Shown in pieces: positions 38,318 through 39,836 of a stretch of 64,000 nucleotides of DNA. Every line of letters starts with the position of its first letter. Position 1 is the stretch's first letter. The notes under the pieces were generated by a model. The model saw only the letters and a list, made by a program, of their open reading frames with translations. It had not been told where the DNA came from and ran no database searches. This DNA is from Nitrosomonas marina (GTDB lineage: Bacteria > Pseudomonadota > Gammaproteobacteria > Burkholderiales > Nitrosomonadaceae), in NCBI RefSeq assembly GCF_900110145.1, contig NZ_FOCP01000020.1, positions 1 to 64,000 of the forward strand, in the 5' to 3' direction. The position numbers were made by a program, and so were the translations under genes.

Positions 38318-38657
38318 CTCACGTCTTTATCAGTATTTACGCTGGATGATTAATTTTTTGCACACGCTATGCTGAAAATTCGATTGGATCTCATACACGA
38401 AGCTCGGTCGATTAACTATTCCAGCCCAGCGTCCTGAGTATTTATATAATTTTTCGAAACCAGTTAAAACGTTTGATCAGTTTGATGTGTCTAATGGTTT
38501 GGTTAAGATTGTAATTTTCACCTATCGAACACATAACCAAATAAAAGCAGCTTGCATTATTCACAAAATCCGTGTGAGAATTTTCACATTTAACGTCAAA
38601 AAATATTATAAAATTTTTCTAAGTAATTGTAAGTATTATAGCTTACGGAGGGTTGCC
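38318..38657. other. 340-bp AT-rich spacer before the LpxK-like gene
   Basis: No gene was found. The open frame upstream of the LpxK-like start (from 38487) has no homology-like features and is probably chance. A weak ACTGA/TCAGT stem just after pgi is the only structure seen. The region is distinctly AT-rich. Confidence 0.45.
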
Positions 38658-39707
38658 ATGAAACTGTCAGATTTGTACTGGCATCGTGTTACACCATTAC
38701 ATCTATTACTTTGGCCACTAAGCCTGTTACTAAATTTATTTTTTAAAATACGCAAATTATGTTATTGGCTGGACTTTTTTCCTTTGGTCAAGCTTCCAGT
38801 CCCGGTGATTGTTGTCGACAGTATTACAATTGACGATGGTGGTAAGACACCGCTGGTGTTATGGCTTGTCGAAATGCTGAAGGGACGGGGCTTGTCACCC
38901 GGTATTGTTACTCAGGGAGACCCCGATCGGCCCGGACAGCCTGAGGCCTTAACGAAACTGAGTGAACATGCCAGGGTACGCAGCAAAGCGTTGCTGCTTG
39001 GAAAACGTTTAGAACATACCTGCCCTGTCTGGGCGGGCAATAATCCCGCAGATGTTGCTCAGGCGTTGCTGCAAGCACATCCTGACTGTAACATCATCAT
39101 ATGTACCTTTGGTTTGCAATACCCACGCCTGGAGCGTGATTTTGAAATTGCCGTTGCCGATTTTAATGAAGCCAGCTTTGGAAACGGATTATTGTTACCC
39201 GCTGGCCCGTTGCGCGCCGGTTTAAAACGTTTGCATAGTGTTGATGCTGTAGTAATCAACAGTCCACGAAAATTGCGTTTCGATACCAGCGATTGGGCAC
39301 CAACTTATCATATGAAGCTGGTTGGTAACATGGTCTACAATTTATCCAGTCCCGATGGCCGGCATCCAGTCTCTGATCTCAAGGACAGATCAGTACAGGC
39401 TTTTGCTACATACGGTAATACACAATGGCTAGCCAACCAATTACAGCAAAATGGTCTCAAAGGCAAAATGCAATCCGTCACAGATGATCACCGGTTTGTA
39501 GAACAGGATTTTTCAGCTATTGAAGCAGAAGTAATTATCATGCTGGAAGAAGAAGCGATTCAATGTCAGAAATTTCAAAAAGACAGGATTTGGGCATTAC
39601 CGGTGGAAGCCTGGATTGACGGTGAAATTCAAGCCCGAGTGTTGAATATGTTAAGGGAAAAATTGGCCGATTCAGACGTCACGAATGAGATGGCCTGTTC
39701 AAACTGA
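38658..39707 (+). CDS. LpxK-like protein lacking the kinase motifs (probable pseudoenzyme)
   Basis: Starting at the ATG at 38658, six bases after ACGGAGGG, the protein has 349 residues, normal for tetraacyldisaccharide 4'-kinase. Homology to LpxK is visible throughout: KTPLVLWLVEMLKGRG, the LERDFEIAVAD segment, FGNGLLLPAGPLR and SVDAVVIN. The functional motifs are changed. The P-loop GGTGKTP reads IDDGGKTP (58-65), the RGYGG motif reads QGDPD (86-90), GDEP is missing, and the catalytic DDGLQH reads TFGLQY (150-155). An ATP-dependent kinase should not work with these losses. The N-terminal membrane helix (about 13-29) is kept. A true lpxK is expected elsewhere in the genome. Confidence 0.82.
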   Translation: MKLSDLYWHRVTPLHLLLWPLSLLLNLFFKIRKLCYWLDFFPLVKLPVPVIVVDSITIDDGGKTPLVLWLVEMLKGRGLSPGIVTQGDPDRPGQPEALTKLSEHARVRSKALLLGKRLEHTCPVWAGNNPADVAQALLQAHPDCNIIICTFGLQYPRLERDFEIAVADFNEASFGNGLLLPAGPLRAGLKRLHSVDAVVINSPRKLRFDTSDWAPTYHMKLVGNMVYNLSSPDGRHPVSDLKDRSVQAFATYGNTQWLANQLQQNGLKGKMQSVTDDHRFVEQDFSAIEAEVIIMLEEEAIQCQKFQKDRIWALPVEAWIDGEIQARVLNMLREKLADSDVTNEMACSN

Positions 39708-39836
39708 GGCTGCGAACTACCCGTTATTAAACAGGATATAAGCTGGTAACTGTTAAAGATTGTCGAAGTTGCCCGATACTGAAAGTTCGCTTATTCTCTG
39801 CCTTTGATCAGCAATCAGAAGCTACGCAAAACTAAA

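Follow-up and report, generated by a model that had tools for sequence, protein, structure and literature searches.

Why does Nitrosomonas marina keep an open gene for a homologue of the lipid A 4'-kinase LpxK in which most of the catalytic residues have changed? We investigated this question at a single locus of contig NZ_FOCP01000020.1 (assembly GCF_900110145.1), using as our window the first 64,000 nucleotides of that contig, the whole stretch of DNA that was analysed. An earlier note on this DNA had read the gene as an LpxK pseudoenzyme, and its claims are taken up below with the results that bear on them. The ATG-initiated frame of 349 codons has a good ribosome-binding site, as that note had described (Table 1), and the AT-rich spacer that it had seen upstream has a GC content of 34%, against 46% for the window. 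A longer alternative frame opens with GTG at 38487; judging from the sequences, the ATG at 38658 is the start common to relatives, and the GTG is not. The upstream neighbours are pgi and glycogen-type genes, and the downstream neighbour is a convergent lnt-like gene (all named from reading the sequence, with no family search).

The window protein matches PF02606 with an E-value of 3.5e-62 and 210.9 bits (cut-off 27), residues 15-332 aligning with positions 2-327 of the 328 in the profile, and it matches TIGR00682 with 160.6 bits (cut-off 91.95). A structure model built from an alignment of 61 relatives (mean pLDDT 85.7, pTM 0.86) superimposes on Aquifex LpxK (4ehy) with a Z score of 30.3 and an rmsd of 2.7 Å over 298 residues. 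The protein is a member of the LpxK family, with a predicted LpxK fold of two Rossmann domains, and the whole-length alignment with the lipid A 4'-kinase noticed earlier agrees with both profiles and with the predicted fold. In the structural alignment, the entries ranked lower than LpxK and cyclic-2,3-diphosphoglycerate synthetase, among them UreG, HypB and SRP GTPases with Z 11-15, were taken to share no more than the P-loop fold. With LpxK (PF02606, TIGR00682; A. aeolicus structures 4EHX, 4EHY, 4ITL and 4LKV) the protein has in common the full-length homology, the fold, the membrane helix, the P-loop Lys and Thr and the LPAGPLR segment, which the earlier note had correctly marked as kept. 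Unlike LpxK, it lacks the base dyad, the Mg ligands, Walker B and K280, and has new conserved residues instead; it also belongs to an organism in which the lipid A pathway was not found.

We aligned 71 Nitrosomonas proteins (70 loci and the window) with an Aquifex chain and 26 canonical LpxKs, 22 of them from other families of the order and four from Gallionella-like loci. Eight catalytic residues were scored: K51, T52, D99, E100, D138, D139, H261 and K280 (A. aeolicus numbering, from the accessible part of PMC6286764). All 26 canonical proteins have eight out of eight. The window protein retains two, the P-loop Lys and Thr (here K63 and T64). The base dyad D99-H261 is replaced by S109 and D277, the Mg ligands E100 and D138 by K110 and T150, and the Walker B residue D139 by F151. 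Two of the eight residues are kept in 16 Nitrosomonas rows, three in 39, four in 15 and five in one. Among the 71, the P-loop residues persist best (K51 in 69, T52 in 60), followed by D139 (54); the base dyad (D99 in six, H261 in five), the Mg ligands (E100 in one, D138 in 16) and K280 (in three) are mostly gone. The view that all kinase motifs are lost therefore holds for GDEP, DDGLQH, H261 and K280 but not for G50-K51-T52, and the P-loop that had been called lost has changed at the equivalents of G42, N43, G47 and G48, whereas K51 stands in nearly every Nitrosomonas protein.

The change goes beyond loss. Replacements are fixed or nearly so at former catalytic positions in Nitrosomonas: G42D occurs in all 71 proteins, N43S in 67, K280E in 63, E100K in 61 and G48D in 57. 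Of the 71 proteins, 64 have His at position 262, adjacent to the lost H261 (H278 in the window protein), and H278 could substitute for H261. Positions 100 and 280 carry reversed opposite charges in 62 proteins (K/E in 56, R/E in four, K/D in two); covariation of this pair as a retained ion pair was considered and set aside, the exceptions being too few and too scattered to show it. Among the residues that contact the lipid, 69 of the 71 proteins keep R171, 59 keep R119, 47 keep R72 and four keep H143; the window protein itself is without R72, R119 and H143.

Table 1. Features of the pseudo-LpxK locus in the window, and LpxL-type matches in Nitrosomonas genomes. Residue numbers with Aquifex letters refer to A. 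aeolicus LpxK.
Feature	Position	Strand	Details
Pseudo-LpxK gene	38658..39707	+	349 codons plus TGA; the sole LpxK homologue of the genome
Promoter-like element	38552..38581	+	TTGCAT-18 nt-GAGAAT, TGT before the second box (extended -10-like)
Ribosome-binding site	38647..38652	+	GGAGGG, 5 nt upstream of the ATG; direct reading
N-terminal helices	38664..38768	+	Residues 3-37; membrane-binding part of LpxK
Altered P-loop	38817..38852	+	DSITIDDGGKTP, residues 54-65; G42D, N43S, G47D, G48D; G50-K51-T52 kept
GDEP positions D99-E100	38982..38987	+	Ser109-Lys110
Walker B DDGLQH positions	39105..39122	+	TFGLQY, residues 150-155
LPAGPLR loop	39195..39215	+	Residues 180-186; R171 equivalent is R186
H261-H262 positions	39486..39491	+	Asp277-His278
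K280 position	39549..39551	+	Glu298
Remnant of fused C-terminal Trm112/YcaR-like zinc ribbon	39669..39755	+	Ended by the stop codon; approximate limits, by eye
Partial LpxL-type acyltransferase matches	G000:C51:14707-15297, G006:C1:1037472-1038092, G026:C5:82124-82747		

The earlier note had taken the gene for a paralogue beside a canonical copy. We found no second, canonical LpxK: the genome has exactly one LpxK homologue, the window gene. Among 125 genomes of the family, LpxK is present in 82, all of them Nitrosomonas (82 of 85), and it was found in none of the 40 genomes of three sister genera (8, 23 and 9 per genus). Degenerate copies missed by Pfam did not come to light in the sister genera: with a profile built from 20 Nitrosomonas proteins, 82 of the 125 genomes were recovered once more, and none of the 40. 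Those Nitrosomonas genomes in which LpxK was not detected, three in all, are 83-84% complete. The absence of the gene from these three and from the sister genera suggests that its role is dispensable across the family as a whole.

A search with a profile of genus sequences returned 74 loci. Together with the window, 70 of these make up a single clade; a few of the 70 carry other MAG titles. Among these loci, the closest to the window protein is that of N. marina Nm71, with 96% identity. The Nitrosomonas pseudo-LpxKs have a single origin: in a quick tree built minus 15 active-site columns, which has several long branches outside the Nitrosomonas clade, all 71 rows form one clade (SH-aLRT 100) among betaproteobacterial LpxKs. 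Two oddities were seen among the loci. Contig G092:C171 (L061, L081), from a Nitrosomonas genome with 6% contamination, carries WaaA together with an LpxK that departs from the genus form: the genus profile gives it 84 bits, and gives the other copy of the same genome 481. This contig looks like a contaminant. Two different pseudo-LpxK loci (L099 and L121) also occur within one MAG (NEU_AOB_2), which is probably a mixed bin.

We then investigated the remaining lipid A genes. LpxC was found in none of the 125 family genomes and LpxB above its cut-off likewise in none, with two weak partial matches; WaaA was found in one, the genome with 6% contamination. In a chosen set of 18 genomes (15 family members and three order controls), LpxD was absent from all 15 family members and present in 3/3 controls. 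LpxA above its cut-off was found in 0/9 Nitrosomonas, in 1/6 other family members and in 3/3 order controls. The window organism's own genome gave no match to LpxC, LpxB, WaaA or LpxD and no LpxA above the cut-off; the pathway that makes the substrate of LpxK (LpxA/C/D/B) was not found there. Partial LpxL-type matches of 39.9-53 bits (Pfam cut-off 22.3) occur in three of nine Nitrosomonas, the window organism included (Table 1), and in none of six other family members, while each of the three order controls has three such matches, the best of them nearly full-length. On the other hand, LptD is present in 124 of the 125 family genomes (for example, G000:C32:76094-77260) and LptF/G in 121 (for example, G000:C33:197282-198319). 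With Lpt proteins present and Lpx genes not found, the export bridge seems to persist without lipid A synthesis.

The ammonia-oxidising Nitrosomonas thus appears to have lost the pathway to lipid A, by which the usual sugar-lipid of the outer membrane is anchored. The earlier note had named, as a case that would speak against it, the only LpxK of an organism making normal lipid A; the gene is indeed the only LpxK, but no lipid A pathway was seen. Its suggestions that the protein regulates a true LpxK or binds lipid A precursors are unlikely, given that the genome shows no match to LpxC, LpxB, WaaA or LpxD and no LpxA above its cut-off. Rather than a paralogue that tunes a true LpxK, the gene is what is left, in altered form and across the genus, of a pathway that has been lost. 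A lone lpxK in this genus is already known. N. europaea was reported in 2010 to have only lpxK among nine lipid A genes (Opiyo et al. 2010, PMC3087551), and this orphan is the same gene in the same genus. The accessible text of that report treats lpxK under gene loss and genome reduction, and mentions neither changed catalytic residues nor selection. It also records lpxA as the only such gene identified in Nitrosospira multiformis. We observed a full LpxA match (G117:C1:2515906-2516664) in a family genome outside Nitrosomonas where LpxC, LpxB and LpxD were not found, which fits that lone lpxA. The open literature searched yielded no older biochemical studies of Nitrosomonas envelopes, and a chemical report of LPS, or of its absence, may exist elsewhere.

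The comparison of orthologues that the earlier note had proposed indicates purifying selection. NG86 estimates on the LpxK part, from the 90 pairs at 72% amino-acid identity or above (88 computable), gave dN/dS values of 0.05-0.27 with a median of 0.116, and 26 disjoint pairs gave a median of 0.115. For the whole gene, dN/dS is 0.072 against Nm71 and 0.083 against strain Nm51. In the same two comparisons pgi has 0.146 and 0.088, and lnt 0.111 and 0.115; the values for lysS and xerD, both 0.041 against Nm71, fall below that of lpxK. Identity to the more distant L086 and L087 is 69% and 65% for LpxK, 74-75% for pgi, 73-76% for lnt, 84-86% for lysS and 92% for xerD. The constraint is therefore real but not of the strictest kind: lpxK resembles pgi and lnt in dN/dS, and it diverges faster than lysS and xerD. 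Broken frames in orthologues, another counter-case of the earlier note, were not found: no stop lies inside the PF02606 match in any of the 82 genomes that have the gene. In the scan with the genus profile, 12 rows show one stop where the profile reaches the end of the gene, the frames being 336-382 codons long.

The constraint has also moved. We compared 44 Nitrosomonas rows (less than 80% mutual identity, mean identity 0.49) with the 26 canonical LpxKs (mean identity 0.44). Over residues 1-25 the mean entropy is 2.10 bits in canonical LpxKs and 0.62 in Nitrosomonas, whereas D99, D138 and H261, each at 0 in canonical LpxKs, rise to 2.52, 1.96 and 1.88. Low values persist in Nitrosomonas at K51 (0.16) and across PAGPL, the core of the LPAGPLR loop (0.00). 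The active site has lost constraint, the N-terminal membrane helix has gained it, and the LPAGPLR loop is still constrained. Pseudokinases and other pseudoenzymes combine a conserved fold with lost catalytic residues under purifying selection. The same three traits are found in pseudo-LpxK, whose catalytic residues were lost while purifying selection persisted; it differs from pseudoenzymes in general in that its parent is a P-loop lipid kinase of the membrane interface and its pathway is gone. The earlier note's idea of a selected pseudoenzyme, presumably with a new role, gains support from this combination. A dismantled catalytic site in a protein still under selection suggests a new job at the membrane.

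In 4/4 Gallionella-like relatives a small Trm112/YcaR-like frame lies 3' of lpxK, and a gene that reads as kdsB-like is downstream in three of the four. In 23 of the 71 Nitrosomonas, from several clades, a Trm112/YcaR-like zinc ribbon is fused to LpxK (for example, L085, L087, L088, L136-L141, L144-L152 and L157). The stop of the window gene falls at the position of a zinc-ribbon cysteine in strain Nm51, and the N. marina Nm71 protein is of equal length. Since both end here, selection on the LpxK part is independent of the Trm112-like domain. The fusion was rejected as the reason for the retention of the gene, being present in 23 of the 71 only.

The reading that we favour, and hold to be reasonably probable, is that pseudo-LpxK is a selected, non-catalytic membrane protein, a candidate binder of another anionic lipid, that arose from LpxK after the loss of lipid A. 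It has to be weighed against the idea that the protein still transfers phosphoryl groups, as a kinase or otherwise, by rebuilt chemistry and to a new substrate; the new P-loop acids D54 and D60 and the E100K/K280E pair would then form a new active site around the kept K51. Such an enzyme would account for the single change that the tree requires at K51, against 20 at D99, 16 at H261 and 13 at D138, for the invariant G42D, for the presence of N43S, E100K and K280E in 61-67 of the 71, and for the reversed charges at 100 and 280. However, position 50 is not Gly in 21 of the 71, the europaea clade among them, and phosphate binding by the P-loop is therefore not a conserved feature; neither D138 nor D139 is constant; and single changes at K51, T52, H261, D138 or D139 are reported in the accessible part of PMC6286764 to lower kcat 850- to 8100-fold. 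A rebuilt enzyme seems to us unlikely, and the retention of K51 (69/71), T52 (60/71) and D139 (54/71) means that nucleotide binding or an unusual activity may remain.

It is also unlikely that the gene is a relic, left after lipid A synthesis had gone and persisting by inertia or solely through its fused Trm112 domain. Genome reduction is the setting in which the accessible text of Opiyo et al. (2010, PMC3087551) places the loss, the gene context differs between clades, the gene was not found in 3/85 Nitrosomonas and 40/40 sister-genus genomes, and it diverges faster than LysS and XerD. A relic is nevertheless hard to reconcile with dN/dS values similar to those of Pgi and Lnt, with frames free of inner stops in 82/82 genomes, and with an LpxK domain that persists in the 48 of 71 proteins where the Trm112 domain is missing. 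We regard as very improbable that the protein is still a lipid A 4'-kinase serving a diverged pathway that is present but undetected. The Lpt export proteins, the weak LpxL-type matches in three of nine Nitrosomonas and scores above the curated LpxK cut-offs could be taken in that sense, but the Lpx families are absent although the controls were positive, and D99, E100, H261 and K280 are gone from nearly all members.

The favoured reading, a non-catalytic lipid binder, suggests the following course of events. The ancestral gene would have been an LpxK of the betaproteobacterial line; its single origin is observed, and descent was probably vertical. The ancestors of Nitrosomonas appear to have lost lipid A synthesis, whose genes are not found. 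LpxK departed from the operon seen in relatives, is fused in 23 of the 71 to the Trm112-like frame that trails lpxK there, and lost its base dyad, Mg ligands and K280, all of which the data show. Purifying selection continued, and replacement residues became fixed or nearly fixed at the old catalytic sites. The protein most likely functions without phosphoryl transfer. Its N-terminal helix may anchor it at the cytoplasmic face of the inner membrane, where the LPAGPLR/R171 loop, perhaps with the P-loop lysine, may hold the headgroup of the anionic lipid that replaced lipid A, and it could act as a sensor, scaffold or carrier of this lipid. A sphingolipid is a candidate for the replacement, as orthologues of the phosphosphingolipid gene cluster are reported for N. 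eutropha; bacteria that lack LPS and contain sphingolipids exist (both from the accessible part of PMC11324152). A bolder proposal, which we hold to be rather doubtful, is that LpxK was rebuilt into part of a non-LPS route for outer-membrane lipids, recognising at the inner membrane the anionic lipid that took over from lipid A (with a phosphosphingolipid as the candidate) and sensing, holding or modifying it for the Lpt bridge, which has persisted in these bacteria lacking LPS.

A dismantled LpxK active site in Nitrosomonas was not found in the published literature that we searched, and a literature search pairing lpxK with pseudoenzyme returned nothing. The locus is a clear natural example of an enzyme retained by selection after its pathway disappeared. 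It also opens a wider question to experiment: which cargo the Lpt bridge transports in a family of proteobacteria where no working lipid A gene set was found. Nitrosomonas is central to nitrification, and the lipid chemistry of its outer membrane bears on permeability and on the response to biocides.

We also investigated the surroundings of the gene. No conserved gene neighbour or operon partner common to all Nitrosomonas clades was found; the order pgi-lpxK-lnt is seen in the window and L084-L087 among 74 loci. A promoter-like element precedes the gene in 9/9 rows of the window's clade (the window, L084-L088, L092, L094 and L095). In these rows it has the form TTGC-20 nt-GAGAAT, with TG ahead of the second box, and is placed 96-114 nt upstream of the start in DNA that is otherwise poorly conserved. 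It was found in 0/65 other loci scanned. A scan for consensus promoters gave three sites against 3.1 expected, which carries no information, and misses this element, whose first hexamer matches at 3/6 positions. In much of the oligotropha/ureae clade, a divergent gene that reads as alpha/beta-hydrolase-like (cluster C1) adjoins lpxK; it is present in 38 of 75 compared loci, for example L115 and L129.
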